From contig JAPJBO010000218.1 of the NCBI GenBank assembly GCA_030068145.1, forward strand, positions 1 through 64,000: 64,000 bases of DNA, in the 5' to 3' direction. The notes under the pieces are model-generated. The model ran no database searches and was not told the origin of the DNA. It saw nothing but the letters and a program-made list of their open reading frames with translations. The number at the start of each line of letters is the position of its first letter. Positions within the stretch are counted from its first letter, which is position 1. Made by a program: the position numbers and the translations under genes. The DNA comes from Diplonema papillatum. Its lineage: Eukaryota > Euglenozoa > Diplonemea > Diplonemida > Diplonemidae. Shown here piece by piece: positions 1-61,720 of this stretch.

Positions 1-60
<60 letters not shown>
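1..60. repeat. (TG)n microsatellite at 3' end of retrotransposon
   Basis: A pure TG dinucleotide run opens the window and may extend beyond it. Read on the minus strand it is a (CA)n tract about 60 bp past the stop codon of the retrotransposon ORF2. The same family has (CA)n tracts beside its other copy at 24729-24920 and 27717-27742. Confidence 0.95.
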
Positions 61-62
<2 letters not shown>

Positions 63-121
63 GCGGACCCGTTTTAACGTGGTGCCTTCCTGTACGAGAG
101 ACGTCCACGCTTCTTCCGGTT

Positions 122-3100
122 TCACGTTACTGCAGATGCTCCCCCAGGCTGTGCGTGGGGGTCTGTGTTTTTCTGTGGGTGATGCCTTTGGCAGCAATGC
201 ACGATCTCCAGGCCGCCCGCTGTGCAATCACCGCAGCGTCCCAATCTGTGGGCAGGGCAGAAGAGCATTCGTGGTCGCAGGCCGTCCCCCTCACGGTGGT
301 GCTGTTTGAACCGGCAACAGGTTTCCGCCGGCAAACGCTTCTTTGTACAGTCCTTGCAGCGTGGTTTCCGGTGTTGCACACATATTTCTCCAGGGCGGGA
401 TGTGTTCACCGCGTCTTCCGGTGCCTTCTTGGGTGGTGACCCTCTGCGAGGTCCAGCGCCTGTTACTCTCTCTACCATCTCCACTCTCTGTTTCCAGTTA
501 GTCTTTCCTTGTTCCCATCCTGCAGGGTAGGCTTTCTCCGGCAGATAGGTTGCCGCCCACGTCAGGTGCTGCGGGTACAAGTTGGTCTCCGCCTGCGCTG
601 TGCCCATCTTCTGCACATGTTCCCGTATGCCTAGGATCACCTCGTCCGTCTCATCCGAAAGTTGCGCCCGCCGCGACGCTCCCCTTACAACTGATCCTCC
701 GACGGCAGTTAAGATCGTTGTTGTTGCTTCGTGGCCACTGAACCACTGTCGTCCAGTTACCTTCTTGAATGCTGAGCCTAACTCAATTAGGCTCATCGCT
801 TTTCCGAGTGCGGAGGCACGGAAGGACTGCAGCTCCGCTTCCTGCTGCTCCCGCGTTGGTCGTTGGCCTTGCACGAGGTCCATTGCCGCGTTGCTCAGAG
901 CATCCGCATCGGTGTTTTGCTCGCGCTTCACGTGTTCTACCCGCAGGGAAAGCCGCTGTCGCAGGGCCACTATTTTTGCCACCGCTCGCGTCAGCAATGG
1001 CTTCAAGTCTTCTGAACACGCCAATTGCCGCGTGGTTTGCCCGACTACCAGCGCCGAGTCTCCGCGAATTACACACTGCGCTCCTTCCGTTCCTTCAGCA
1101 TCCTCCAGGAGCTGCAGCCCCGCGAGAAATCCCTCGTACTCGGCCACGTTGTTACTGCGCACGTTTGGCAGCGGGAGCACTATTTGTGCGTACTTGACGC
1201 CCTCCTTGTACAGTACCGCTCCTGCGCCCGCCACGGCAAAGGCAGTCCCGTTGGCCCTCGCTCCTCCGTCAAAGTAGATTGCAACATCGCAACTAGCTGC
1301 GGCGTCTTCTGGCAGAGTCTGTCGTGCTGTTGTGGCCTTCTTCGTGTGTTGTGGCACCGCCGTGTAGTATCTACTTTTGAGCGTTGGGAGGCGGCGTCCG
1401 GTGCGCAACTCGAAGTCCACCGCCAACTCCACAAAGCTTACCCCGAGTTCGTGCCCCGGCGGCGCCCATTTCAATTCCCTCAGCCAATCCGTGAACGCCA
1501 TCCACATCTCCGGGCCGTACTTCCACTGGGTGAGTACTGCCGAAGGCGCAACGTCCGGCACAGCCAGTTTGTGTGGTTCTGCTGGTTTCCATCGTCGCGG
1601 ATACTCAAGCGTTCGGTGGTGCCGTGTAGACCTGTCCAGCATGTCATCTGCCCCTTGACGTGCAGACAGCACCTCCACGAAGTAAAAGTGCAGTTTCTCA
1701 AGCAGCTGAAGCCTCTTTCCCTGTTCGGTGGGTAAGAGATTCGGGTCGTGGAAAGCGGGAGCCACCCCGCACAACCGTAAGCATGGCGGCCACCTGTGTT
1801 GCACGGTTCTTAGCTCCCCGTACTTTGAGCGTATTGTCTCCCAGGCGGGGCATTCCCAAAACAGGTGTTCCACCGTCTCCGGGACCTGTGTGTCACAGTA
1901 AGGGCACTCGCTTGCGTTTAGTCCTGTTCGTCCCGTGACCGGCGTGGCTCCTGCGATTACCGATCTCAGCAGACCGGCCTGGTACGCGGTGAGTGGTGAG
2001 TTCCGCATTTCCAAAACGTGCCTCGTTGCTGCGAAATCGACTCCGCCCTGGACGCCTCCATAGTCATTTCCCCTCCTTGTCGCCAGTCGCGCCATTTCCC
2101 GCAAACGCAGGGCATGTCTCAAGTCATGTTGCAGGAGGCGCGAATTACCCAGGACCGCTGCATCATGCACGACTCCTTCTCCTACCTCATTCACGTACGC
2201 GACGCTTGTCGGGGTCACCCACCTCCACTGGAGTACGTTGAGCGCTTCTTTCAGGAAAGCGAAGGGCCCATGTAGCCTTGCCAGTTCGTCGTTGTGGGCC
2301 CATGCTGTTTCCGCCAACGCTCGGGCGTAGTCCCACTTTTGGACCTGTTCGGCCCAGGTTGTGACTCTCCTGTAGGCCGGTACGACTCCCGGGTCCAGCC
2401 TGTGCCCGTGGTGTAGGATGTGTAGCACTGCTTCCTGAGCTCGTCGTGGCGGCCCCGTCCATACCGCCTCCGTAAATCCCCTTCTCAAGCGGTCGACTTC
2501 CCCTTTGCCAATCGCCGTTACGGCTGCACCGTAGAACCTCTTTGCCCCTGCTGTCATGCTTACGGCAAGGTCTCGCGCACTAGCCGGTAGCGGGAGGCAG
2601 GCCGCTCTCTTCAACACTGTCTCGGCCATCGCGTTTCGCTGCGCCACCCGCTTTGACGGTCGGAGCGGCTTGCTCGGTTCAACTTGCTTCGTCGTGAGCA
2701 TTACTCCAAGTACGTCAAAGGTTGTTCGCCTTGCTATCGTCTCCGGCTGTACGTCCGCCTCTTCGTTCCCTTTGCTCTCGGCGTACACTATCTGCTCCGG
2801 AGCGTCCCGCGCAGTTGTGAACCACAGGGACTTCGACTGCGTACACACCTTCATTCCTGTCAGCCCCGCAAATGTTCCTGACCTCTTGGCTGCCTCTTGC
2901 AGCTTCGCGAGGCTCTTCATCAACGCGTAAACGTCATCAACGTAAGACAACGGAATGGTCGCCTCGATGTCTGCTACGTGCCGCATCCAGACACTGATAA
3001 GAACGTTTATCAGTATCACGCTCAATGGACACCCCTGCATAATTCCATTAGTCGGTACGAAGCCTTCTCCGACCACGGCTCCAATTCGGAAATGGCGCTG

Positions 3101-6088
3101 CATGCTGGAGTAGGCCGCTCGCAGAGTTCTCAGCACTGTTGGGTGGAACCCGAGCTCCTCCGCTAGCCGGAAGGCGATATCTATCGGCACCGAGTCGAAG
3201 CACTTCTTAAAGTCCAGCCCAAGACCGTAGAGGGGATCCCCCGTCACGTGCGCCTGCTCTATGAGACCTGCGAGGTGCCAGACTAGGTCGTCCGTCCCAT
3301 GTTTCTTCCGGCACCCGTGCAGCCCGCTGGGCGCTACCTTATCCATCCATTCCAAGGCCTCTTGTGCACGGATCGCCGCCCAGACTCTGTACAGTACCGG
3401 TGTGACAGATATTGGCCGCTGCGATAGCGGGTCTCCTGTGCTCTCGGGCTTCGGCAAGAGGTGCAGAATCGCGTGCATCAGTTGTTCTGGCCATTGCCCC
3501 TCGCTCTCGACTCGGTTCATCGCTTCAGCCATTAGTTGCAGGACTTCGGCGGGTAGTTGTCGCAGCTCGAAGACACGCCACGCGTGCAGTCCGGGCGAAG
3601 AGGTCGTCTTCATTCGCTTGAGTGCTGCGCTAACGTCTGCCGCGCCGATGGTCTTGTGTTCCATTTGTTGGGGGGCCGGCAGGTACCGCGCGTAGTGCGT
3701 CTTAAAAGCCTCCCACTGCGGTTCCTGGATGTCGGTGTACCTCTGAAAGATACCACCCCATGCTTCGGGGCCCCTCAACATCTCGTCGATCTCTCCCGGA
3801 CACGCCGTCAGAGATCCGTCTCGTCGCCGCAGGAACACCGATGGGCTTTCTCGACTTCCCGCAAGAAACCGGTATATGTCGCCTTTGTCACCGCTGTTCC
3901 ACGCCTTCTGCATCTGGTCTTTCCACCGCCGCGTTCGCTGCTGCTTCAATGCGGAGACCGCTTCGCGCTGCGAACCTTCCAGCACCTCTACCATTTCCAA
4001 TAACCGCTCCAGCTCGTCGCGTCCGCCTTCGTCGTGGCTTGTAGGACCATTCTGCGGCAGGTACCCCCTGGATACCTTCTTTTGAAGTGCGCCTCTTGCA
4101 TTTCTCTCGGCCAAAGTCATCGCCCCGGGCTGCTCTCTTTCTAGCCTTTGACTCGCCTCGGCTACCACTGTTCGCAGCATTCCTAGTACCTTGTCCCGCT
4201 GCCTGGTGGTCCTATCAACAGCACCCCGCGCCGAGACCGCCTGTCGTGCAGAGACATGTGCGTCCCGAACGGAATATCCTTCGGCCCTGCCTTTGCAGCC
4301 GTCTGCGTCTTTCTGAGAAAGGCCCTTCTTGTGGAGCTCGAGCAGGTACATCTCCGCCACTTCTGATGCATTGCGCAGAGCTGCTTCTGCCCCATCTACC
4401 GAACGTTTCCGGCGTAGTGCCGCCTCGAGTGCGTCCTGCTCCTCCTTCTTCGTCGACAGCGGCACCTTCTTCGGAAAGGGAGCCGGTATCCAATGCGTCC
4501 GCTTCGGGTGTGAGGCTGCCCGCATGTCTAGGGTCACGAAAAGTGGACAGTGAGTCGGTATGTCGTACTCGTGCGGGTTCGCTGTCCGGGTGTCGACGAG
4601 TGCTTGCGACGCGTTTGCGTTTAGGAAACACATATCGATCCTTGTGCCTGCCGCTCCTGCCCAGCAGGTGGGTGGTGCGTCTCGCGACGTTTGATGTGCC
4701 GCGGCTGCTGCCGCGTCTGTCCACCCGCTCCGGCAGGCAGCCATTAGGGACACGCTCTCCTCTACTGGTGTGTTGAAATCTCCCAAGATGGCTACTGGTA
4801 CCTGCCCGAGCCCTGCCGCCATTTCAAATACGTCCGATATAAACTTTTCCCGTTCCCTGACAACCTCTGCTTCTCTCCCTACTTGCGCATAAATCGAGAT
4901 TACGTGCAAAACGCAACGAGCATTGCCTGTCGCTACGACGGCGTGAGCCACCCGTGTGCTTTTCGCCAGTCTAGTCTCCAGTTCAGTCTTCGGGCGTGCG
5001 TTTGCGGCGACCACGCTGTTGTTTATCACCACTGCGGAGCCGCCTGGTGCCCTCTGTCCTCTTCCGTTTGCCCCAACCACTGTCGGGACGTCTTCTCCCC
5101 AGCAGCACTTCTTGCCGTACGCTCCGAGAAACATCTCACACGTCCTCTTCCCCTCTGGGCCCACTCGGGTTTCCTGACAGGCCACAATGTCCGCGGGCAG
5201 CGTCGCGACAGTTCGATACTTTGTGCTCATGGAGCCAAGATTAACTGTTGCTAACACAATTGCGTCCTTAGGTGCGTGCTCCACGTCGGTGGGGTGCAAC
5301 ACGGCAGCAGACGTTAGCTCTCGTACGCTTACTCGGGACGTCTCGGGGGGCAAGGAAGCCAGTAACCGATACCCTGTGTGGGGAAGCATGAGCGCGTCAT
5401 AGTGCTGCGGGCGGTAGGTTAGCACGATTACCCGCGACGGGTTCTCAGCTCTCCCCGCTCGCCTTAGATGCTGCAGGTCCCCCGTTGAGAGCACCCATAT
5501 GCTCGCCTTTAGAACTACTGCGGCGGCCTGCAGCGTGATCTGGTCCCCGTATGTACCATCCTGTGCGACTGCAAAGAGGTATTCGGAGAATGGTTGGGTC
5601 TCGAATGCGGTTGGTGTTGAATTGCGAAGTTGCCACGTCACTTTCTGTCGCATGGAAGCCGCCGTGATGCTCAGCTTGCTCCCTCTTACCAGAGCTGCGA
5701 ATTGGCAATTCCCGTCCTTCTCCACCGACACGCGCTTTGCGGCCAGCGCCTCGGCCACACTATCAATATATTTGTCGTCGCTCTCCGCTCGCGTTAGCTG
5801 ATGACGTTGAGCGGCCTTGGACCCGGCCGACTGGGGTTTTGGATTGTCGCCGCGTCGGGCTGGCGTGGTTTGGTTGTCGGCTGGTGATGTTGGGAGTTGT
5901 CCAAGGCCAAGGGTGCCTTCCGGCGATGGGGCTTGTTGTGTCGCCCTTGTCGCACTTGGTTTGTTTGCCAGGTGTAGATCGGCGCCCCGGTCAGTGTGCA
6001 CAGTCTTCGGTCGTCGGTTGTTTGGATCTGATGATGATACTGATGCTGATGATGATGATTTTGTTGCCGACGGTTCTCGTTTACACAC
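122..6088 (-). CDS. Retrotransposon ORF2: OTU protease, APE endonuclease, reverse transcriptase, RNase H
   Basis: A 1988-aa polyprotein. Residues about 120-235 form an OTU-type cysteine protease domain with DGNC (Cys128) and a histidine in QHYDAL (His229). Residues about 277-505 are an APE-type endonuclease with CQETR, GDFNTP and THCPLF. The reverse transcriptase follows, with LDFKKCFDS, NGIMQGCPLS and the catalytic SYVDD near residue 1047. A CPYC...H...C zinc-binding motif lies near 1394. A segment with the motif ELAVDFEL comes next, then RNase H (about 1598-1730) with FDGGAR, AEYEG, GDSAL and DADALSN supplying the four acidic residues. The C-terminus is Cys/His-rich and ends SAVT. All active-site residues I can recognise are kept. 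The protein would nick target DNA and copy element RNA by target-primed reverse transcription. The OTU domain could process the polyprotein or remove ubiquitin; that role is inferred. Confidence 0.93.
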   Translation of the reverse strand: MCKREPSATKSSSSASVSSSDPNNRRPKTVHTDRGADLHLANKPSATRATQQAPSPEGTLGLGQLPTSPADNQTTPARRGDNPKPQSAGSKAAQRHQLTRAESDDKYIDSVAEALAAKRVSVEKDGNCQFAALVRGSKLSITAASMRQKVTWQLRNSTPTAFETQPFSEYLFAVAQDGTYGDQITLQAAAVVLKASIWVLSTGDLQHLRRAGRAENPSRVIVLTYRPQHYDALMLPHTGYRLLASLPPETSRVSVRELTSAAVLHPTDVEHAPKDAIVLATVNLGSMSTKYRTVATLPADIVACQETRVGPEGKRTCEMFLGAYGKKCCWGEDVPTVVGANGRGQRAPGGSAVVINNSVVAANARPKTELETRLAKSTRVAHAVVATGNARCVLHVISIYAQVGREAEVVREREKFISDVFEMAAGLGQVPVAILGDFNTPVEESVSLMAACRSGWTDAAAAAAHQTSRDAPPTCWAGAAGTRIDMCFLNANASQALVDTRTANPHEYDIPTHCPLFVTLDMRAASHPKRTHWIPAPFPKKVPLSTKKEEQDALEAALRRKRSVDGAEAALRNASEVAEMYLLELHKKGLSQKDADGCKGRAEGYSVRDAHVSARQAVSARGAVDRTTRQRDKVLGMLRTVVAEASQRLEREQPGAMTLAERNARGALQKKVSRGYLPQNGPTSHDEGGRDELERLLEMVEVLEGSQREAVSALKQQRTRRWKDQMQKAWNSGDKGDIYRFLAGSRESPSVFLRRRDGSLTACPGEIDEMLRGPEAWGGIFQRYTDIQEPQWEAFKTHYARYLPAPQQMEHKTIGAADVSAALKRMKTTSSPGLHAWRVFELRQLPAEVLQLMAEAMNRVESEGQWPEQLMHAILHLLPKPESTGDPLSQRPISVTPVLYRVWAAIRAQEALEWMDKVAPSGLHGCRKKHGTDDLVWHLAGLIEQAHVTGDPLYGLGLDFKKCFDSVPIDIAFRLAEELGFHPTVLRTLRAAYSSMQRHFRIGAVVGEGFVPTNGIMQGCPLSVILINVLISVWMRHVADIEATIPLSYVDDVYALMKSLAKLQEAAKRSGTFAGLTGMKVCTQSKSLWFTTARDAPEQIVYAESKGNEEADVQPETIARRTTFDVLGVMLTTKQVEPSKPLRPSKRVAQRNAMAETVLKRAACLPLPASARDLAVSMTAGAKRFYGAAVTAIGKGEVDRLRRGFTEAVWTGPPRRAQEAVLHILHHGHRLDPGVVPAYRRVTTWAEQVQKWDYARALAETAWAHNDELARLHGPFAFLKEALNVLQWRWVTPTSVAYVNEVGEGVVHDAAVLGNSRLLQHDLRHALRLREMARLATRRGNDYGGVQGGVDFAATRHVLEMRNSPLTAYQAGLLRSVIAGATPVTGRTGLNASECPYCDTQVPETVEHLFWECPAWETIRSKYGELRTVQHRWPPCLRLCGVAPAFHDPNLLPTEQGKRLQLLEKLHFYFVEVLSARQGADDMLDRSTRHHRTLEYPRRWKPAEPHKLAVPDVAPSAVLTQWKYGPEMWMAFTDWLRELKWAPPGHELGVSFVELAVDFELRTGRRLPTLKSRYYTAVPQHTKKATTARQTLPEDAAASCDVAIYFDGGARANGTAFAVAGAGAVLYKEGVKYAQIVLPLPNVRSNNVAEYEGFLAGLQLLEDAEGTEGAQCVIRGDSALVVGQTTRQLACSEDLKPLLTRAVAKIVALRQRLSLRVEHVKREQNTDADALSNAAMDLVQGQRPTREQQEAELQSFRASALGKAMSLIELGSAFKKVTGRQWFSGHEATTTILTAVGGSVVRGASRRAQLSDETDEVILGIREHVQKMGTAQAETNLYPQHLTWAATYLPEKAYPAGWEQGKTNWKQRVEMVERVTGAGPRRGSPPKKAPEDAVNTSRPGEICVQHRKPRCKDCTKKRLPAETCCRFKQHHREGDGLRPRMLFCPAHRLGRCGDCTAGGLEIVHCCQRHHPQKNTDPHAQPGGASAVT

Positions 6089-6121
6089 TTCTCCGACACC
6101 CTGTCCAGGACGCCCGGGGCC

Positions 6122-7315
6122 CTACTTCTCAATTGGACTGTATCGGTTGGCGCCGGTGGACATCATGTCCACAAGGGACTGCTGCTTCCCGCTTCCCTTG
6201 GCACCCTTGGCTTTCCCGGCCTTCTTTGTAACCTCGCTCATCTGCCGGAGCAGCTCGGCCTCTTGCTCTTCCGCTTCCTTCTTCGCTGCTTGTTTCTTCC
6301 CCTTCTTGCTCGTTTGCGACGATGTCTGGCTTGAAAGAGGCTGACGTGGAGGTTCGTCGTCAGGAGGTGAAACGGGTGCGGGCGCGGGATTGCCGATTGC
6401 TGGCGCTGGAGGCGCTTCACTCGGGATCCTGCGCATCGATTCGATTCGCGCGTTCGTTTCGTCTTCGAACGCGAGTAAGCGGCGTTCGACGTCCCCCATC
6501 CAGAGCAGCTGCTGTTTGTACGTTTCGTCGTACCGCTCCTTCGCTATCTGGGTCTGGGCTTCCGCCCACTTCAGAAACCGCTGCTCGTACGAGTGCTCCC
6601 ATGTCGCTCGCGCCACGGCCCGTTCCTTCTCCCACGCTTGGCGTTGCTGCTTCTGCTGTTGGGCCCAAGCTTCCCAGGCAACTGCGGTCTCCGCGCCGGT
6701 GGGTACTGCATCCTGCTGCATCTCGACGTCCGACTCGGCTTTGGCAGTCGGTTGCAACTCGTCAAGCTGCTGTTGGAGCCTCGCCACTTGCCTCTTCCTT
6801 GCCTCGGTGTGCGCTTTCACCGCCGTGCGCCACTCTCTCTCGCCCTCCTTCTTTCCGAACTCCGAGACAAACTCGGCCTTCGTGTACCTCGGCCCCCGAG
6901 GGATGTTGTTGTCAGGGAGGCGTAGCGGGTGTTCCGGCGCTGCGAGGCGCTCGATGTGGCCTTTGAGCCGCTGGACCTTCTCCCGCCTCAGCTCCTCTTG
7001 GCGCTGTTTTTCCCGCTCTTCCAGGTCGACCACGTCGGCCTCCTCGTCTCCCACCCGCACCCTCGTCACCGGCGGCGGGGTGGCGGCTTCGATGATAGCG
7101 ACACCGCGCCTCATCCTCACGCGCGCCCCCGCCCATCCGAGCTGTTCGATGACAGCCTCGTACGCCCCTGCCCTGCCTTTGAGTCCTCCCAAATGTAGAG
7201 AGAACTGCCTGAAGACAGGCAAGTGCACCACACGTACCACTGGCATGGGCTGTTGGTCACCCGAAGCTCTGGCACCGGGTTCCAGGGGAACCGCGTGGAG
7301 GTCGCCCGTGCTCAT
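6122..7315 (-). CDS. Retrotransposon ORF1, coiled-coil protein
   Basis: A 397-aa protein directly upstream of ORF2, whose start lies 33 bp beyond this stop. Residues about 95-290 are rich in Glu, Arg, Lys and Gln with few helix breakers, consistent with a long coiled coil. The tail is Pro/Ser-rich, then Lys-rich (KKGKKQAAKK), which would suit nucleic-acid binding. No zinc knuckle or RRM is evident. In LINE elements ORF1 packages the RNA; that role is inferred here from position and composition only. The start at 7315 was chosen because it is the first ATG after the (CA)n tract and keeps the reading frame open. Confidence 0.78.
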   Translation of the reverse strand: MSTGDLHAVPLEPGARASGDQQPMPVVRVVHLPVFRQFSLHLGGLKGRAGAYEAVIEQLGWAGARVRMRRGVAIIEAATPPPVTRVRVGDEEADVVDLEEREKQRQEELRREKVQRLKGHIERLAAPEHPLRLPDNNIPRGPRYTKAEFVSEFGKKEGEREWRTAVKAHTEARKRQVARLQQQLDELQPTAKAESDVEMQQDAVPTGAETAVAWEAWAQQQKQQRQAWEKERAVARATWEHSYEQRFLKWAEAQTQIAKERYDETYKQQLLWMGDVERRLLAFEDETNARIESMRRIPSEAPPAPAIGNPAPAPVSPPDDEPPRQPLSSQTSSQTSKKGKKQAAKKEAEEQEAELLRQMSEVTKKAGKAKGAKGSGKQQSLVDMMSTGANRYSPIEK

Positions 7316-7355
7316 CTTTTCGTTAGTGATTTTGTGTGTAGTGTGGATTTTTCCC

Positions 7356-7361
<6 letters not shown>

Positions 7362-7395
<34 letters not shown>

Positions 7396-7420
7396 CGTGT
7401 GTGTGTGTGTGTGTTTAAGT
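7362..7420. repeat. (TG)n tract at 5' boundary of retrotransposon
   Basis: TG dinucleotides with two GTGCG interruptions, just upstream (minus strand) of ORF1. With 1-60 it brackets the whole element. Confidence 0.9.
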
Positions 7421-7804: not shown

Positions 7805-8125
7805 TAGATGTCTTCTGGAGGAGAACACTGGCTGCAGAAGGTCCTGCCTTAGCCAGGATCTGAGGCACCATGTACCATACGTCTCCCAGGGGGCGGTGCC
7901 CCCTGGACCCCCCATAAACTATCTACAAGATTTCGAATTTTCGCCAGAGACCTGTTACCAGGCATCTGTTACAGGTTCCGAACAAGACAGAATCTGAAGT
8001 GCCATGTACCGTACCTCCCCCGGGGTCCGGTGCAGTACCCCCCCTGCATTAAGACTCACCAGAGAAAATGGGCTTGGTGTCTAGTCTGAAGGAGAAAAAT
8101 GGGCTGCATAAGGTCCTGGACCGAG
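7805..8125. repeat. GC-rich dispersed repeat, two partial copies
   Basis: ACTGGCTGCAGAAGGTCCTG at about 7830 and GGGCTGCATAAGGTCCTGG at 8101 are similar, as are the nearby blocks with TGCCATGTACC and GGGGCGGTGCCCCCTGGACC. A related block, GTACCGTACCGTTTGCC followed by GGGGGGCGGAGCCCCCC, occurs at 11353-11395. No coding potential was seen. Confidence 0.5.
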
Positions 8126-8139
8126 TTTGAAAAAAAAAG

Positions 8140-8614
8140 AAACGACAACATCATCAAAAGCATCACCGTACAGGACATCGTGACGGAGCAGAGCAGGGGC
8201 GAAAAGGGATTTTTGACGGCCAAACCGATGCACGTTGAGGTCGTCAGCGAGCAGACAGTCAAGTGCAAAAACCTGCTGTCGTGCCTGGAGAACGACATGG
8301 CCTGCCTGACCCTGATTCCGTGCATGCTCGGCATGTATTTCATCGAAGGGACGTACGCGACGTTCTTCCTCGACAGCCTCAAGTCGAAATTCTCTGTGGG
8401 CGTCATCGGAGGAAAACCGAACCACGCCCTTTACTTCATTGGCTGCAAGGGAAACCATCTCATCCACCTCGACCCTCACCGAGTGCAAGACGCCTACGTC
8501 AACCCTTCGACGAAGGGCGCGTTCACCGAACCGCGGAAGCACTCCGTGCCCATGACTGAAATCGACACCTGCTGCCTCATGACCTTCTACACCGCCGACA
8601 GGAAAGAACTGCTG
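8140..8614 (+). CDS. ATG4: ATG4 cysteine protease, internal exon with catalytic Asp and His
   Basis: ATG4 (peptidase family C54) processes ATG8 and removes it from lipid during autophagosome formation in the cytosol. This exon encodes the second half of the catalytic domain. It has IGGKPNHALYFIG followed by LIHLDPHRVQ, where the Asp and His of DPH complete the catalytic triad, and an ITVQDIV segment with a LIPCMLGM block preceding them. The catalytic Cys would lie in an exon left of this window. The exon ends at 8614 on a complete codon before a good donor, GTACGT. The start at 8140 after an A-rich AAAAG is a weaker guess. The frame stays open into the intron and runs into an unrelated RT, giving a false 372-aa ORF that should not be used. 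The partner exon is at 21173-21586. Confidence 0.85.
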
Positions 8615-8653
8615 GTACGTGCTTTTCTCCTTTCCTCCTTTACTTTGATCATA

Positions 8654-8745
8654 GGTGTCACGGCATTTTTTGGCAGCCGCTGCTTAACAGTGCATGCTAA
8701 TCCATGTGGTTCATGTACTTACAAAAGAACTCAATGCTTAACAAA
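8654..8745 (+). repeat. Dispersed repeat unit at retroelement 5' junction
   Basis: It begins GGTGTCACGG, contains CAGCCGCTGC, then TGCATGCTAATCCATGTGG and AAAAGAACTCAATGC. The same unit lies at 52922-53027, directly before another copy of the same retroelement family, and at 54451-54502 after it. A diverged relative is at 32520-32615. Confidence 0.8.
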
Positions 8746-10960
8746 GCCGCTTCCCCTGCTGGATGCACTAGCGGATGTCATGAACCTGGTCGAAGTGACT
8801 GGGGTTTGGCCGGCGAGCATGACAACTGCCTTGGTGTCGATGGTGCCGAAGGATGAGAGCCAAGACCCGCTGCACACGAGGCCAATAACCGTCACGTCCG
8901 CTGTGTACCGCCTATGGGCGTGCCGCAGGCTTGCGGACATAGTCCTGTGGCAGGAGAAGTGGATCGAAGAAGGACAGAAGGGCTTCCGACCGGGTCACCG
9001 TATCGAGGACGTCCTGATGGAGATAGGGCTCGAGATGGAGGACGCCTTGCTAGATGGAGAGCCGCTCTACGGGGTGGCGCTGGACTTCCGGAAATGTTTC
9101 GACATGGTCCCGCGAGAGATAGTGCTGCGCTTAGCCGAGGACTTAGGGTTGCACAATCGGGTTCTTAAGCCGCTGAGGGCGATCTACAGACTGCTCGCGA
9201 GACGCTTCGGAGTTTAGTGTGACCAATGGTATCCTTCAAGGGTGCCCTGTATCCGTCATCCTCATCAATGCCCTGCTGTCGGTAGTGATGAAGGCGGGCA
9301 AGAAAGAAGCGGAGGGGGTGAGCCCAAAGCCGTACGCGGACGATGCCACGCTGCTATCCAGGCTGTCGGAGGCCGCCCTGCAAAAGGGAGTGGACGTAGT
9401 AGACGAGTTCTGCACGCTCACCGGAATGGCGACCGTTTTCTGGAGGTTTAGCTCCTTCTCGACGAGGCGTAGGCATCAGTCGACGCTCAGACTCCGCAGC
9501 GTGGATGCGCTGGTGCGGTTTGGCAAATCTGTCACGTGCCTGGGGGTCCTAGTCTCGACGGCGAAGAATAGGACAGAAAGGTCCGACTCGGAGAGGGTGG
9601 AGAAGGCGGCTGCCCTGGCGGAAGGCCTCCGCCATGCGCCGTTCCGCGGGTCCGGATTGTACAGTCGAGATGATGGTTGAAATCCTTGCGGAACGGGCAG
9701 AGCTCGAAGCACGAGGCTGGGTAGCCAGGAACCCCACGACCCCCTGGTCGAGAGCGGATGCGATGCCTGCCGAGAAGCTCGACCACCCCTTTGCGCGCAT
9801 TGCCCCGGCATGGGCGTGGGAGCGGAACAAGGCCTGGGGACTACCGACGTTTTATGCGTTGGTAGCGTGGCTATCAGACATGGAGTGGACCGAGAACGGG
9901 CAGGCGTCAATGCTAGAGCTTGCCATCGACTTTGAACTCTTTTCAGGCCTCAGCATACCGCTGCGCGAGAAAGCACCGAAGGGGGTGAGGGAGCGAGGAA
10001 ACGTCCTGCGCTGCATGATCAGCGCGTTGGACAAGCTGGCGACACAGCAAGGGCTGGGGAGTTGCGAGAGAGGCGAGAGAGTATGCCCGACGACGTCGCT
10101 GTCGTTCATGGGCATCTCGGGGATATCGGGGGTGCGGCCCAGGCCCCGCTTTCGTGAGGCACACACGGGGACGAACCTCGAAGAGCAGGTGAAGGGAAGC
10201 GATGTAGGGACGCAGTGCCCGACGTACCCGGACTGGACGGCCGAGAGAGCGGCGAGGTGGGCCCTGCCTGTCCCACCACAGCTGCACCCCGACCCCGTGG
10301 CCGGGTGTCGGAGTAGAGAAAGCACTCGTCACCTGCGCGACCCACCACAAGGGGAAGTGTGAGGCGTGCCGAGCACTCGTCCGAAGGGACGTACCCACGG
10401 TAGAGATGTGCTGTCGGCACCATCACCACGCTGACGATGGGCAGCCGATCGCCGTGTGCGTGGAGCACAGCACGACGAAGTGCGGCGAGTGCAAGACGGC
10501 GGCGGCGTGCTGCCGCAGCGGGCATCATGCCTGCCGCACGCATGGCAGAGGAACCTGCCAAGAATGCAGGAGGCTCCCTACGTTGGCGCAGAGGAGACCG
10601 GCAGCGTGCTGCCGCCGCGGCCACCACCAACCCAACGAACCGAACGCCCCGGCAACCCCCGGACACAGCAAAAAGAAGAAGAGACCCCTCTCACCCACCC
10701 AGGTGGGCGTACAACGAGAAACGCCGGCGGGAAAGCGCGCGGCGCAGGCGCCGCCCGCCGTAGCGAAGCAGAAGAACGGCGACGACCGGACGGGCAGCCA
10801 AGAGGCCGCCACCAACGCCAGGGACCGGCGAACGACCAGCGTTGAAAAAGAGGTTGCTCGGCACCCCGAGGGAGAGCCCGATCGCCGGCCGCAAGCGGAA
10901 GAAGGCGAAGGCGACCACACCCGAGTCAGGGATGCAACGAAGAAAGAGGAAGGGGCGGTC
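8746..10960 (+). pseudogene. Decayed non-LTR retrotransposon (RT lacking RNase H, Cys/His-rich tail)
   Basis: The RT region is readable: RPITVTSAVYR, LDFRKCFDMV, then a frameshift near 9216, NGILQGCPVS and the catalytic PYADD near 9335. A deletion near 9650-9680 removes the thumb and zinc-motif region. Reading resumes with the shared domain ending ELAIDFELFSG (about 9915-9950), is frameshifted again near 10300, and finishes in a Cys/His-rich region (CCRHHHH, CRSGHHAC). The better-preserved copy at 53028-54448 shows how the tail should read. At least two frameshifts, a deletion and 5' truncation make this copy inactive. No RNase H was found between RT and tail, unlike the family at 1-7430. Confidence 0.85.
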
Positions 10961-11399
10961 AAGGGCTGGGCTGGCGGTCAGGGGCTGGCCATCGGTGGGT
11001 CGTCGCTGGGCATGGTGGGCTGGCTGGCAGAAGTTTGGGGCTGCCGCTGGTGCTGAGCCGAGTGAGAGAGTGGATGCTCAGAAGCAGCCCGGAATTCTTG
11101 ACAGATTCTCTCCGAGTTGACACAAGTGCCTTGTTCCGTGTGATCTCCGGTCTGCATCTACTCGTGCCAATGATTTACCAGCACACACTATCTGAGTGGT
11201 GGATGAATTTGAAATGGGCTGTTGGCTTCAGGAGTGCACACCAGGGGGGAGCGGGGCGAGGGTCACACAGATGGCAAACAGTGCCACCAGTACGTTGGTC
11301 GATGTTTAACGCGACAAACGGGCTGAGAAGTGCAAACCGTTTCTCCACCTGAATGTACCGTACCGTTTGCCGGGGGGCGGAGCCCCCCGGACCCCCCCT

Positions 11400-11916: not shown

Positions 11917-12437
11917 TTACGTTTGTTTGGGTTTTCTTTTGTGAATGTCAGGGTGCAAAGACGAGCCTGCCCACAGAGCACTTTTGAAGGCAGAATCTAT
12001 GTCTGCATCTGTGATTGCCAAGTATGAGTCCGCGAGCCACTTGCACACCTCGTCACGGGTTGGCGCACTGTTTTCTGCAACAAGCTGTTGCGAGGACCAG
12101 TCTATCCACTTGGAACGAAGAAGTCGTCGCACCTTCAGATTGCAGGCTCTGGTCGCCAACATTCAAGTGACCTGACGTGTTCGGAGGTATAATGAACACC
12201 AGCCAGCCCCGCGATCTCGCCTCCTTCACGACAGGAATGCTGTAGTGCGACTTGTACCCATCCACCATTACGAGAAGCCCATACTTCCCTGAGGGGAAGC
12301 TGGGTAATGTACAGATGTACTCGAGCATTACTTCGTAGTCGCATCGGATTGCCGAAAGGGAATGCGTGAACATTCCGCAACCCGGATGCAGAGATCTGAA
12401 GTGGTGACACATTGACGATCCTGTTGACCATGTCCAC
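11917..12437 (-). pseudogene. Pogo/Tigger-like DDE transposase remnant
   Basis: The minus strand encodes VMVDGYKSHYS followed by PPNTSGHLNVGDQ, the arrangement of the second and third acidic residues of DDE_1 transposases (pogo/Tigger group). After a frameshift near 12150 a further stretch (RLLRSKWIDWSSQQL to FKSALWAG) resembles the C-terminal helices of these enzymes. The N-terminal DNA-binding half and the first Asp are absent. It is a fragment within the ATG4 intron with no recognisable inverted repeats. Confidence 0.7.
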
Positions 12438-12714
12438 AGGCCCCGGATGATGCAGTCGTCTCTTTTTGAAGGAAGGGTTGACCCTTGAAACGCTTCACGC
12501 GGGGACAGGGTTAACTATCCTGGAAAGCTGCACTTTCTTCGTGTAGTAGGGTGTCTTGTGGATGTGCATGGAAAAAACAGGGGAGATCTCATTCTCTTGC
12601 ATCGGGCCGTACCGTTAACCGCAATAGGTCTCCTAGGCTAAAAGCCTCTGGCCGACAGAACAATGTAGGTAAGGGAAGTCGGCAAACTGGATCCGTAACT
12701 TCCCCCGCGGCAGC

Positions 12715-24726: not shown

Positions 24727-27835
<3,109 letters not shown>

Positions 27836-35471: not shown

Positions 35472-35715
35472 ATCTCTCGACGATTGCAATTATTCTCCTT
35501 GAATGAGGAAGGCCTAGTAGGCGCAAGTCATCAGCTTGCACTGATTACGTCCCTGCCATTTGTACACACCGCCCGTCGTTGCTACCGATTGGCTGTGGGA
35601 TAGAGTTCGGGAGAGGGAAGCTCGTTCTTGGCAACAAGTTCAGCGCCCGATCCAAGCAATGTTTCTCAGCTAGAGGAAGCAAAAGTCGCAGCAAGGAGCT
35701 ACAAGGACGTCCCGT
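35472..35715 (+). rRNA. 18S rRNA 3'-end fragment, diverged (probable pseudogene)
   Basis: GATTGCAATTATTCTCCTTG, GCGCAAGTCATCAGCTTGC, TGATTACGTCCCTGCC and TTGTACACACCGCCCGTCG are the well-known conserved blocks at the 3' end of small-subunit rRNA. Near the end, AGAGGAAGCAAAAGTCGCAG stands in place of AGAGGAAGGAGAAGTCGTAA. Changes at nearly invariant positions and loss of the final GGTTTCCGTAGG segment argue for a degenerate copy. No 5.8S follows. Confidence 0.85.
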
Positions 35716-37927: not shown

Positions 37928-38082
37928 AGTGTCAGCTTGGAACTGTTGCGAACAAGAGGAATCCAACTGGGTAATTAAGCCACAGCATTTCGCTTCATCA
38001 CAGCGGTGGCGAGTGGAATGTTACTTCTGCCCAGTGCCCTGAATGTCAACGCTGAGAGATCAGGTCAAGCGCGGGTAAACGA

Positions 38083-38121
<39 letters not shown>

Positions 38122-38215
38122 TGTCTTCTAATTAAAGACGCGCATGAATGAACCAATGAGATTCCTTCTGTATCTGGCGAAACAGCAGTCAAGGGAACGG
38201 ACTCTTTGGAGCAAG
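37928..38215 (+). rRNA. 28S rRNA domain V fragment, diverged (probable pseudogene)
   Basis: The conserved LSU blocks TTCTGCCCAGTG, CTGAATGTCAA, CAAGCGCGGGTAAACG, GGGAGTAACTATGACTCTC and TTAAGGTAGCCAAATGCC occur in the right order, followed by GACGCGCATGAATG and AAGGGAACGG. This is the stretch leading into the peptidyl-transferase region. Similarity fades before 37928 and after 38215, and conserved positions are altered (CGACGGGAG for CGGCGGGAG). It is an isolated fragment about 2.2 kb from an 18S fragment, not a normal rDNA unit. Confidence 0.87.
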
Positions 38216-52921: not shown

Positions 52922-53027
52922 GGTGTCACGGGATGTTTGGCAGCCGCTGCTAAACAGTGCATGCTAATCCAAAAGAACTCAATGCTAATCCATGTGGTTC
53001 GTGTACTTAAAAGAACTCAATGCTAAA
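52922..53027 (+). repeat. GGTGTCACGG repeat unit before retroelement copy
   Basis: Same unit as 8654-8745, with an internal duplication (TGCTAATCC and AAAAGAACTCAATGC occur twice). The element begins right after ...AATGCTAAA at 53028. Confidence 0.8.
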
Positions 53028-54448
53028 CTGGTCGAGAGCGAATGCGATGCCTGCCGAGAAATTTGACCACCCCTTCGCGCGGATTGCCCCGGCATGGACG
53101 TGGGAGCGGAACAAGACCTGGGGACTACCGACGTTTTATGCGTTGGTAGCGTGGCTGTCGGACATGCAATGGACCGAGAACGGGCAGGTGTCAATGCTGG
53201 AGCTTGCGATCGACTTTGAACTCTTCTCGGGCCTCAGCATGCCGCTGCACGGGAATGCGCCGAAGGGGGTGAGAGAACGGGGAAACGTCCTGCGCTGCAT
53301 GATGAGCGCGTTGGACAAGCTGGCGGCACAGCAAGGGCTGGGAAGCTGCATGAGAGGAGAGAGGGTGTGCCCGACGACGTCGCTGTCGTTCATGGGCATC
53401 ACGGGGATATCGGGTATACGGCCCAGGCCACGCTTTCGCGAGGCACACACGGGGACGATACTTGAGGAACAAGTGAAAGGAAGCGAAGTAGGGACGCAGT
53501 GCCCGGCGTACCCTGACTGGGCGATCGGGAGAGCGGCGAGGTGGGCCCTGCCTGCCCCACCACAACTGCACCCAGACCCCGTGCATATGCCGGGTGTCGA
53601 TATAGAGAAGGCACTCGTCACGTGCGCGACCCATCACAAAGGGAAGTGTGAGGCGTGCAGAGCACTCGTCCGAAGGGACGTTCCCACGGTAGAGATGTGC
53701 TGCCGGCACCATCACCACGCGAACGATGGGCAGCCGATCGCGGTGTGCACAGAGCACAGCACGACGAAGTGCGGCGAGTGCAAGACGGCGGCGGCGTGTT
53801 GCCGCAGCGGGCATCATGCCTGCCGCACGCATGGCAGAGGAACCTGCCAAGAGTGCAAGAGGCTCCCTACGCTGACGCAGAGGCGACCGGCGGCATGTTG
53901 CCGCCGCGGCCACCACCAGTCCAACGAACCGAACGTCCAGTCAACCCCCGGACGCAACAAGAAGAAGAGGCCCTCCTCACCCACCCAGGTGGGCGTACAA
54001 CGGGGAACGCCAGTTGGAAAGCGAGCGGCGCAAGCGCCGCCCGCGGCAACGAAAAAGGAGACGGCGACGACCGGACGGGCGACCAAGAGGCCGCCACCAA
54101 CGCCAGGAACCAGCGAACGACCAGCGCTGAAGAAAAGGGTGCTAGGCACCCCGAAGGAAGGCCCGATCGCCGGCCGCAAGCGGAAGAAGACGAAGGCGAC
54201 CACCCCCGACTCAGGGGTGCATCGAAGGAAGAAGAAGGTTCCGAGGGCAAGCAGCTCTCAGAAACGACCGGGGACCACGGGCACGCCAATGCCCTCGAAA
54301 GTGAAAAACGGGCACACGTGCCCGCCCTCGTACTCGCCGACTCAGTCTCTGGAATCGCAAGAAAGCCAAACCCCGCTAGCTCCACAAATGCTCGACCTTG
54401 ACGACGCAATGGCAGGTGACGACGTCATCCGATAACCTGACTTTCAAG
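53028..54448 (+). pseudogene. 5'-truncated non-LTR retrotransposon, C-terminal region intact
   Basis: The ORF is open to 54435 but begins after the RT. It includes ELAIDFELFSG, a region with TTSLSFMGITG, and a long Cys/His-rich tail with four or five clusters (CATHHKGKCEAC, CCRHHHH, CTEHSTTKCGEC, CCRSGHHAC, CCRRGHH). A Lys/Arg/Pro-rich end finishes DDVIR. It is the better-preserved relative of 8746-10960. The repeat unit TGCATGCTAATCC...AATGCTAAAC flanks it on both sides. It lies inside CLU intron 1. The clusters probably bind nucleic acid; no enzyme domain remains. Confidence 0.85.
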
Positions 54449-54450
54449 GC

Positions 54451-54664
54451 AGTGCATGCTAATCCATGTGGTTCATGTACTTAAAAGAACTCAATGCTAA
54501 ACAAACATAACGTGGGCGGCGCCGAAGCTTTACCAGCTTCGGCTGACACCATTTGCGCACTTAACCATGGTTAAGAAGACGACTGAAAGCACAGACACGA
54601 AGATAGCTCAAAGCATTTGCAAAATAACACAAAAAGCCTCTAGGCAAAAACCCGTTTTCACATT
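54451..54664 (+). repeat. Flanking repeat unit followed by repeat R2
   Basis: 54451-54501 repeats the unit found before the element at 52955-53027. R2 follows (54502-54664), about 97 percent identical by eye to 28280-28441, with CTTAACCATGGTTAAG inside. A second, diverged R2 partial copy continues to about 54785. Confidence 0.8.
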
Positions 54665-54784: not shown

Positions 54785-55062
54785 CTGGATTGACGAAATT
54801 CTGCGAAAGCATTCGGCAAGAATGTCTTCATCAATCAAGAACGAGAGCGTGGGGATCCAAGATGATCAGATACCGTCGTCGTCCACTGCTGTAAACGATG
54901 CCGTCTCAGGATCGAGGGAAGTAATTTTGGCTCCCACGACACTCCCCGAACGAGAAATCGAAGATGATTGGTTCAGGGAGGAGTACATTCGCACGGCTAA
55001 AAATTAAAGGAATTGACGGGAATTGACGGAATGGCACCACCAGGCGTGGAGTATGCGACAGT
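54785..55062 (+). rRNA. 18S rRNA central-domain fragment, diverged (probable pseudogene)
   Basis: Conserved SSU blocks occur in order: TGCGAAAGCATTCGGCAAG, ATCAATCAAGAACGAGAGC, GATCAGATACCGTCGTCGTC, TGTAAACGATGCCG, CGAGAAATCGAAG, AAAGGAATTGACGG and GGCACCACCAGGCGTGGAG. GGAATTGAC is locally duplicated and many usually fixed bases differ. The fragment lies in an intron of the CLU gene on the same strand, directly after R2. It is therefore most likely an inserted, decaying copy. Confidence 0.88.
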
Positions 55063-59785: not shown

Positions 59786-61720
59786 CTACGTCACAGCAGA
59801 TGGAACGCGTCTGTTACGTCGCCGCGGAGGCGGCCTACGAGTGGGTGTCATTGTGGCCTCCCGGCCGGAGCCATTGTTGGATGACCCTTCGCTCGTTTCT
59901 TCGCGTTTGCGTCGGTTCGCGCGTCGGATGGACGCAGCCGGGGGCTGCGCATTGGGCGGCGTTCGTCGGGCGGGGGTGTTGGCCCGGAGTTGCGGCGTTG
60001 GCAGTTGAGTGCGTCGGCGCCGCCGCGCTGGGGGGGTGCGTGGGACGGAAGGGTCCTCCGCAGCACGCCGCCGCAGCGGCGCAGCGCGATCGATCGTTGG
60101 TGAGTCTCCCTGGCCGGAGCCGGAGGATTCCTCGCTCGTCTCCCCGCGTTTGCGTCGGAGCCCGCGTCGGGGCGCTGCCGGTGCCGGTTGAGGTCCCGCC
60201 GGAGGTGCAGGTGCCTCGTTCTCGTCGTCGGCGTCGTCCGGCCGGTCTCCCGCCCGGTGGTGGCCACTCCGGCAGCACACGGAGGCATTGGCGCAGCCGC
60301 CGCAACGCGTCAGGTGGTGCGCTCCGCAGCATTGCGTGAGGACACCGTCACCGGGCTCGTGGTGGTCCCGGCAACACTGCTCCGGCGTGCGCTGTGAGCT
60401 CGAGGCGCACAACGGACACTTCTTCTTCGCGCACTTGTCGCAGACCTGAAAACGCCCTCGCGTCATGGCCTGCGACGCGGGCACCAGCACTGGGTGCGCA
60501 GAGCGTGTCAGCACCGGCCTCCGCACCTCCCACTGCTGAGCGCGCTCAGCGCGTAGAGCCGAGTCGTACTGCGGGAACACGTCCCTACCCCACACTTGGC
60601 TTGTCAGCCCACCGACGGGCAGGGCACGCGTGGCACAGGCCTCCAGGACAGCCGCCGTTTCCGCGCCCGCCGCGAAGACGGGACGTACTTGCAGCCCGCC
60701 AATCACCCGCGGCACACCGAGCGTGTGGAGGCTCTTCACCCTCTCCAGTCTCGCCGTCGGCAGCGGCGAGGGCAGCTTCAGAGTCTCGCATAGGCGGCAC
60801 AGCACTGCGAGCATCGCTCCTAGCCGCTGACCCCGTTCGGCCACCGATACGGGGCCAGCGGGGCGCTGAACCTTCGGCCTCTTGGGGCAGTGCTTGACAT
60901 CCATCCCTGTGAACAGCTCGAAGTCCAGAGCGAGCTCGATATTGGAGACCCCTTCAAAGGTGGTCCACCGCAGCGCCGCCAACCAGCCCTTCAGAGCGCG
61001 CATCATCGGGGCGCCAAAGTTCCATTTCCGCGGCGCATCCGGTAGGTCGTTGTACCGAAATCTGTGGGCGGTCGCCTGTGTGGAGGCGGCGAGCACCCAG
61101 GCGTGGGTCACCGGCGCGGACTTCCAGCGCGCAAGGCTCGCCCCAGTCCTGGCTGCAAGGATCGTTCCCATCATGCGATGCAGGGCCGTGGCATCAATAT
61201 CCAGTCCCACGGTGATGACACCGTGCACCCGGGTGCAGGAGGGCCAGCGCGAGCGGTCAGCCCGTACGAGGGCCGCGAAGCAGTCCATACTCCGGATGTT
61301 GTCGTACGCGGGGCATGCCCACCACAGGTGCTCCGCGGTGTCGGGGACCCGCAGCTCGCAGTCGGGGCAGTCACGGCCACGGGCCCGGGGAGCGCTTTCG
61401 CTGCTCGAGGTCACCTCGTCGAAAGCATCAGCTGATGCGGTCCGATCGTCTTCGCCGCCGGAGGAGGGCCCGGAGGACCCTTCAGCAGAGGAGGAGGAGG
61501 CGGCGGGGGACGCGGCCGAACCGTCACCGCCGTCGCCGGAGTCGCCCCGGCGGTCTCCGTTGCCGGCGCCGCGCCCCCAGCGCGTTGCAGTAAACGCCGC
61601 CGGCCAGGATGGTCGTGAGGGCCTTCCGCAGCGCAGCACTCGCCGTCGCTCGGCGGCGTTCCTCGTTGGTGCGAACGTAGTCTACACCGTATTGCACCCC
61701 GTCAAAGGACGGTCCACAGT
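59786..61720 (-). pseudogene. Non-LTR retrotransposon C-terminal fragment, third family
   Basis: A 617-aa minus-strand ORF without RT. It has CPDCELRVPDTAEHLWWACP (zinc motif that follows RT in these elements), a domain ending ELALDFELFTG, VWGRDVFPQY, and a Cys/His-rich tail (CDKCAKKKCPLC, CCRDHH, CCGAHHLTRCGGC, CCRSGHH). A long Arg/Pro/Ser tail ends SAVT, the same four residues as the OTU-containing family. No RNase H lies between these parts. A frame change near 61600 seems to join a more upstream piece (ALRKALTTILAGG) resembling the sequence before the zinc motif in the complete element. The copy is 5'-truncated. Confidence 0.8.

Follow-up and report, generated by a model that had tools for sequence, protein, structure and literature searches.

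An OTU-bearing LINE of Diplonema papillatum with one in-frame stop between ORF1 and ORF2 and AC-repeat junctions

Several described systems resemble in part a long interspersed nuclear element (LINE) that lies at the start of a 64,000-nucleotide stretch of Diplonema papillatum DNA (contig JAPJBO010000218.1 of assembly GCA_030068145.1, positions 1 to 64,000; hereafter the window) and encodes an OTU domain ahead of its polymerase. In a 2005 abstract, Dualen of Chlamydomonas reportedly carries a cysteine protease, and given this the OTU-bearing LINE is probably not wholly new; the surprising part is the conserved layout of the stop codon between its two open reading frames (ORFs). The closest parallel to that layout is gag-UAG-pol read-through in gammaretroviruses, where structural and enzyme ORFs likewise share one frame with one stop, and where an RNA structure stands about 8 nt downstream, as a candidate helix does in some of the present families; the present element differs in being a LINE with no long terminal repeats (LTRs) seen, in having an OTU rather than a retroviral protease, and in that its read-through is only proposed. 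The L protein of viruses that we take to be nairoviruses also has an OTU fused ahead of a polymerase, but that is an RNA virus polymerase, and no common descent is claimed beyond the OTU family.

Among retroelements, Dualen and RandI share with the window LINE an endonuclease of the apurinic/apyrimidinic type (APE), a reverse transcriptase (RT) and an RNase H, the last as given for Dualen/RandI in the available part of PMC4640811. Dualen, however, carries a PD-(D/E)XK-type endonuclease besides its APE (PMC3636483 and PMC4640811, both in excerpt), and the comparison is one of descriptions, with no sequence alignment. NeSL and Utopia LINEs also place an N-terminal cysteine protease ahead of the RT (PMC4640811, in excerpt), but theirs is Ulp1-like and is accompanied by a restriction-like endonuclease (RLE), whereas the window LINE has OTU and APE. 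Fish Togen LINEs insert specifically into (TG)n microsatellites, so that an AC/TG target as such is not new; the same excerpt places them among NeSL-related families and mentions no OTU. OTU proteases have been reported from Ginger1 transposons and Helentrons (PMC2836005 and PMC4067079, in part), mobile elements as here, but DNA transposons and not retroelements. The accessible part of the open-access literature searched yielded OTUs in DNA transposons only and no LINE with an OTU; no priority is claimed. The locus is probably best explained as a recently active, AC-microsatellite-specific APE-type LINE with a leaky stop and a deubiquitinase-like OTU; of this, the ends, the AC junctions, the domain order, the intact OTU under purifying selection and the conserved one-stop, same-frame layout are read directly from the sequence.

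The OTU domain and its setting in ORF2

Families are named here by open-frame length in codons (for example 1950, 1945 and 2135), the window family keeping a separate name, and residue 1 of ORF2 is the first codon after the TAG that ends ORF1. Searches covered the organism's own assembly (271,365,524 bases in 2910 contigs, the window lying on contig C218). ORF2 holds, in order, OTU, APE, RT, a zf-RVT-like zinc knuckle, RNase H and a Cys/His-rich tail. A first-pass annotation had already recognized the minus-strand ORF at 122-6088 and the combination of these domains in a single frame, and profile searches agree on both, except that the GTG at 6088 is merely the first start accepted by a bacterial ORF finder, the frame being open to 6121. 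Searched as a whole, the frame matches RVT_1 (E 3.6e-18), Exo_endo_phos (2.2e-10) and RVT_3 (1.3e-8) of Pfam. The best PDB matches of the RT are 8c8j (1.8e-13) and LINE-1 ORF2p chains (3.8e-13), followed by a weaker match to 8gh6 (6.3e-8), presumably an R2-type protein, a ranking that does not amount to a phylogeny. The best solved relatives of the RNase H are Rv2228c, an RNase H (3u3g) and ST0753, and its RVT_3 type is one that we take to be archaeal-like. With a profile of the ORF2 C-terminus, RNases H were retrieved, as were polyketide synthase chains, these at E 0.5. The window LINE gave no RLE match, PDB R2-type proteins matching around the RT only and no RLE family model being in use.

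Seven APE residues (N294, E317, Y411, D448, N450, D496 and H524) are invariant across 7 aligned families, and in 7/7 the position before the last His is Thr523 instead of the Asp expected ahead of the final His in the APE 'SDH' motif. The earlier statement that all active sites are kept must be qualified at that one position. The Cys/His-rich tail, also predicted, consists of two C-x2-H-x4-C-x2-C...CC...HH units. Related elements are built alike as far as scanned, with OTU and APE in all six other ORF2 5' halves and RT and RNase H in all three 3' parts. No long direct repeat except AC occurs at the two ends, hence no LTRs. A second copy in the window, of a related and older family (57% protein identity to the first copy; proportion of differing silent sites, pS, 0.73, and of differing replacement sites, pN, 0.29), begins only near residue 1059. 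An RT with an APE-like endonuclease upstream, no LTRs and a 5'-truncated copy together identify the element as an APE-type non-LTR retrotransposon.

Some sequence features recur among these and other LINEs. The ORF2 C-terminus SAVT is common to several families (window 122-140, 27649-27664 and 59786-59800; loci L060 and L061), while L062 ends in PAAVK. Units of the form C-x2-H-x(n)-C-x2-C...CC...HH are also found in other LINE families of the window, at 10208-11056 and 53011-54435 (tandem in both) and at 59786-61681, with no Pfam family in the parts scanned. ORF1 (397 codons) has no Pfam match; near its C-terminus, 7/10 families (L040, L041, L042, L043, L006, L071 and the window copy at 6125-6300) have a PIP-box-like Q-x-x-[LIMV]-x-x-[FYM]-[FYMVI], and binding of PCNA through this motif is a guess.

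Taken singly, the window OTU is a borderline match. The Pfam OTU model scored E 0.001 and 20 bits on the whole frame, under its 23.3-bit cut-off, and 1.9e-5 and 25.6 bits, above it, on the OTU stretch alone; Otubain, of the OTU clan, covers the His motif at 6e-4, under its own cut-off; and phmmer aligned OTU1 and OTUD3 from the Cys motif to the His motif at E 0.08-0.14 only. The relatives are more informative. In this genome seven families supplied nine OTU domains, whose identity to the window OTU goes down to 32%; all nine keep the catalytic Asp, Cys, His and Asp invariant in the order Asp-x-x-Cys, then His-x-Asp (in the window copy DGNC at residues 136-139 and QHYDAL at 239-244). PF02338 matches 9/9 of them (E <= 0.01) and Otubain 7/9, and a profile made from the nine retrieved OTUD5 (5.5e-8), OTU1 (2.5e-7) and 'RNA-directed RNA polymerase L' (3.3e-6) from the PDB, the last presumably nairovirus-type L proteins. 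With relatives included, the assignment of the ORF2 N-terminal domain to OTU is secure on these comparisons, and a chance motif is ruled out by the nine-domain conservation, the 9/9 Pfam matches and the PDB profile matches. Across six family pairs pS in the OTU is 0.52-0.84, with silent sites near saturation, against a pN of 0.10-0.24, which marks the domain as being under purifying selection between families. Pfam, the nine-domain profile and selection thus agree with the OTU-like N-terminus first read from DGNC and QHYDAL, and the profile search that could have returned no OTU returned one. Families 2135 and 2130 have two OTUs in tandem, one 67-68% identical to that of the window and the other, of a second type, 32-35%; tblastn found no second OTU within the window (next best match E 2).

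The first-pass annotation had called the arrangement uncommon, which is wrong for its own genome, where OTU-bearing LINEs are carried by many families, to judge from the profile matches and their frames. A PF02338 search gave 656 candidates, of which 150 were scored and all 150 lay above the cut-off; counted by eye, some two thirds occupy frames between about 1400 and 2130 codons long. Not all are LINEs, because some score groups belong to a second OTU gene class. With the window OTU as query there were 848 candidates, and the 150 scored all reached E <= 5.3e-55. None of 14 control genomes matched PF02338. Relatives were found neither in viral contigs (a protein search and two alignments) nor in other genome contigs (two scans), and the 7 phage records returned by tblastn of the OTU had E values of 1 or above. 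A single viral contig with an OTU (L001) was left out of further comparison. Among the 150 candidates scored with the window OTU, twenty-eight loci including the window are identical to it over all 171 residues. Compared with the window copy over the element part, 13 of the 27 others show 0 mismatches (over 3504 nt in 12 and 2920 nt in one), 6 show one and three show 2-5, the remaining five being truncated, broken or otherwise different; such near-identity indicates that the window family amplified very recently. The other OTU gene class (L070, L072 and L073) has an RT-like stretch, seen by eye, upstream of the OTU in a frame of 1109-1559 codons, with no Pfam match in the stretches scanned.

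One stop between ORF1 and ORF2

ORF1 and ORF2 of the window copy share a frame that a single stop divides, a feature overlooked in the first-pass annotation, as were the lack of an AUG from that stop to the catalytic Cys and the AC microsatellites around the copies. This layout recurs in families 1950 and 1945 (TAG) and in 2135, 2130, 1876, 1972, 1966, 1938 and 1528 (TGA), making ten families in perhaps six lineages, three with TAG and seven with TGA; in 1528, ORF1 is open for 146 codons only. Nineteen LINE junctions were inspected, of which L065 is cut by a contig end, leaving 18 informative; L070, L072 and L073 (by their upstream RT-like stretch) and L076 (by score group and a DGNCLF motif) were set aside as the other OTU gene class. 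Within the stretches read, twelve of the 18 show the layout cleanly (window, L006, L040-L043, L045, L067-L069, L074 and L077). A census that required exact flanks and allowed any codon at the stop position found TAG in 31/31 window-family junctions and the stop unchanged (TAG) in 62/62 junctions of family 1945. Of the 28 loci with an identical OTU, 27 reach the TAG in frame, and L013 keeps the TAG with a linker about 10 nt shorter.

The stretch around the stop offers few places to start translation. No ATG occurs in any frame over the 509 nt from the last ATG of ORF1 to ORF2 residue 157, whereas 2000 dinucleotide shuffles average 7.4 and none reaches zero. The first in-frame ATG follows the catalytic Cys in the window family and the whole OTU in 1950 and 1945, too late for an AUG start to give a working OTU in these three families. 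Peptide identity also carries on 3' of the stop, where the TAG families share GxGRxGQ and 2135, 2130, 1876 and 1528 share [LM]VGGG (Leu replacing its Met in 1876 and 1528), the codons differing at third positions. When the 30 codons that follow the stop are aligned as protein, the ORF2 frame scores best in six of six family pairs, in one of them by 96 to 95.

In the TAG families a candidate RNA helix adds to this picture. All three have a perfect helix (G-U allowed) from exactly 8 nt after the stop, of 10, 11 and 13 pairs, matched by 1, 1 and 0 of 1000 shuffles that kept the 5' arm; as the position was seen first in 1950 and 1945, the window family is an independent test of it. The pairs vary between families with pairing kept, some on both sides, the sixth (by eye) being C-G, A-U or G-U. 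In 1950 and 1945 the stretch from +5 to +90 folds with low energy (z -3.5 and -2.4), but over +5 to +150 the values are only -1.5 and +0.5. A comparison of these two families gives pS values of 0.71 for the ORF1 end, 0.52 for the OTU and 0.20 for the 30 codons that directly follow the stop, a drop of the kind expected from an RNA signal. Two TGA families, 1966 and 1938, have a 13-pair helix at +9, equalled in 6 and 5 of 1000 shuffles as the best of nine offsets. The one-stop layout and the TAG-family helix point to a retrovirus-like read-through that would yield an ORF1-OTU-APE-RT-RNase H fusion.

AC-repeat junctions and other features of the window

Termini were compared for eight copies, one in the window and the others on contigs C3, C5, C713, C831, C1792, C70 and C256. 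All eight begin identically, with an AC tract and then AGGGGGAAAAATCC, and six of the eight end in GGGTCCGCAA-(CA)n, while those on C256 and C5 enter the AC tract a few bases earlier; AC repeats thus stand at both ends of every copy examined. Where the tract ends within the reading, at five of eight copies on the 5' side and six of eight on the 3' side, the flanks beyond it differ. On C70 the 3' end of another family lies just upstream and the 5' end of another just downstream, with an AC tract between each; on C1792 another 3' end and then a 5' start follow downstream; a degenerate 3' end precedes the window copy; and L042, L043 and L045 have AC tracts ahead of ORF1 as well. The AC junctions and neighbouring element ends argue for insertion into AC repeats and head-to-tail stacking of elements. 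On C957, C1760, C2450 and C99, copies of the OTU gene follow one another on a single strand at intervals of about 7550 or 6111 bases, a spacing that fits such stacking. An AC tract belonging to the 3' untranslated region (UTR) had been considered on a suggestive score, reached by 1/500 shuffles, and was dropped because the eight copies show AC to be the junction. The positions of all parts are given in Table 1.

Table 1. Parts of the OTU-bearing LINE and of its related copy, in window coordinates
Feature	Position	Strand	Remarks
Whole element, full-length APE-type LINE	62..7357	-	5' end 7357, 3' end 62; each +/- 1-2 bases (AC ambiguity)
(TG/AC)n microsatellite at 5' flank	7358..7414	.	Same junction in 7 other copies
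(TG/AC)n microsatellite at 3' end, cut by window edge	1..61	.	3' ends of 7 other copies also enter AC
5' UTR, ~42 nt	7316..7357	-	Termini comparison of copies
ORF1, 397 codons + TAG	6122..7315	-	Open frame
Candidate read-through stop, the TAG dividing ORF1 from ORF2 in frame	6122..6124	-	
Candidate read-through helix, 5' arm, from 8 nt after stop	6105..6114	-	
Candidate read-through helix, 3' arm	5981..5990	-	
ORF2 frame, 1999 codons + TGA	122..6121	-	Open directly after TAG
OTU domain; Cys139 codon 5705-5707, His240 codon 5402-5404	5342..5809	-	Pfam, family alignment
APE-type endonuclease domain	4532..5257	-	Pfam, family alignment
Reverse transcriptase, YVDD at residue 1060	2702..3451	-	Pfam, PDB matches
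zf-RVT-like zinc knuckle, below Pfam cut-off	1844..1924	-	
RNase H, RVT_3 type	872..1288	-	Pfam, PDB matches
Cys/His-rich C-terminal repeats	179..382	-	Motif reading
3' UTR, 60 nt	62..121	-	Termini comparison of copies
Second copy, related family, 5'-truncated	24921..27717	+	Abuts (AC)96 at 5' end, (AC)15 after 3' end

Elsewhere in the window, a second LINE family is represented by a 5'-truncated copy set between 47-nt near-perfect direct repeats (52982-53028 and 54456-54502), and nearly the same 47-nt sequence precedes a sister copy at 8.7 kb (8688-8745); this family with its repeat is possibly another target-specific LINE. A partial ATG4-like gene (Peptidase_C54, 2.3e-23) at 8090-9217 continues without a change of frame as a piece of LINE RT. 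Eukaryotic large and small subunit (LSU/SSU) ribosomal RNA is represented by four dispersed fragments above the Rfam cut-off (12289-12651, 37950-38166, 35569-35695 and 54843-54972), and the Rfam scan reported no complete rRNA gene within the window.

Expression of ORF2, the role of the OTU and their meaning

Under the explanation favoured above, most ribosomes would halt at the UAG and release the ORF1 protein, while a minority would read through into the fusion, aided in the TAG families by the helix 8 nt downstream, so that stop efficiency would set the ratio of ORF1 to ORF2 protein. The OTU would ride on the polymerase as a deubiquitinase, as in nairovirus L, and shield the ribonucleoprotein from ubiquitin-dependent turnover. 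At an AC repeat the APE would nick the GT strand, the (CA)n end of the RNA would pair with it and prime cDNA, and every insertion would leave AC on both sides, giving rise to head-to-tail stacks.

Several observations weigh against a functional leaky stop. Three of the 18 junctions (L064, L066 and L071) keep the stop and its flanking peptide beside a short or broken ORF1, and three more (L044, L063 and L075) lack the one-stop layout; L044 has the OTU of family 1950 and resembles a frameshifted version of it. The junctions counted in the census, 31 and 62, come from young copies of a few masters and so show the layout of the masters, not long-term selection. In five of the seven TGA families (2135, 2130, 1876, 1528 and 1972) a helix near the stop is missing, and the window junction itself folds with an unremarkable minimum energy (z -0.8 to +2.0). 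Between the TAG families the stop-to-OTU stretch shows little protein constraint (pS 0.32-0.70, pN 0.24-0.46), and in the window family it does not look coding by codon use (-0.254), another frame being open as well. No read-through LINE of this kind was found in the accessible part of the open-access literature searched. Some of these points would suit an ORF2 made by re-initiation, internal entry or a non-AUG start, for which the available part of PMC5972666 supplies precedent, namely unconventional initiation or termination-reinitiation in LINE-1 and another non-LTR element; in families 2135 and 2130 an AUG lies 5 codons after the stop, which makes re-initiation possible there. Against such a route, an AUG start in the window, 1950 and 1945 families would drop the OTU Cys or the whole OTU, the GxGRxGQ and [LM]VGGG identity reaches the stop ahead of any AUG and is indifferent to the Met, and one frame is common to ten families; we consider it unlikely. 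That the stop is a nonsense mutation in a formerly fused ORF, passed on by dead copies, is very improbable: near-identical copies could all have inherited a junction broken in one master, but the stop stands at the corresponding place in ten families with differing stop codons, amplified families included, and the ORF1 end and the OTU are constrained. Still more improbable is reassignment of UAG and UGA in the host, so that there would be no stop at all; both codons do occur inside such long frames, yet related ORF2s end in TAG (the second window copy, L060 and L061), TGA (window) and TAA (L062), and hence neither TAG nor TGA is plain sense.

The OTU might alternatively be a self-processing protease that cuts the read-through fusion between ORF1 and OTU, much as tymovirus PRO cleaves its own polyprotein. 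It is placed exactly between the ORF1 stop and the enzymes, and an LxGG-like [LM]-x-G-G-G (LVGGG, MRGGG) lies between stop and OTU in 7/7 TGA families, LxGG being a sequence cut by ubiquitin and papain-like proteases. The motif is present, however, in 0/3 TAG families, that of the window included, and its GGG could be a plain part of the N-terminus of that OTU type. The best-scoring solved relatives, OTUD5 and OTU1, are deubiquitinases, and together with the OTU-bearing polymerase L chains they favour the same role here; a deubiquitinase is most likely, and self-processing rather doubtful. A bolder proposal, tentative and somewhat improbable as a whole, would have a LINE clade arrive independently at a retrovirus-like layout made up of a Gag-like ORF1, a conserved leaky stop followed by an RNA helix and a Pol-like block headed by its own cysteine protease, with an OTU that both matures the fusion (at [LM]xGGG, in TGA families) and deubiquitinates, and with AC repeats as self-renewing landing pads.

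How LINEs obtain much ORF1 and little ORF2 protein from one RNA is only partly understood, and three related families in which an in-frame stop is conserved close to a helix would offer a testable, retrovirus-like answer outside LTR elements. The near-identical copies suggest very recent movement, which leaves the element open to experimental test. A selected OTU ahead of a LINE polymerase would, in parallel to nairoviruses, bring the ubiquitin system into the retrotransposition cycle.

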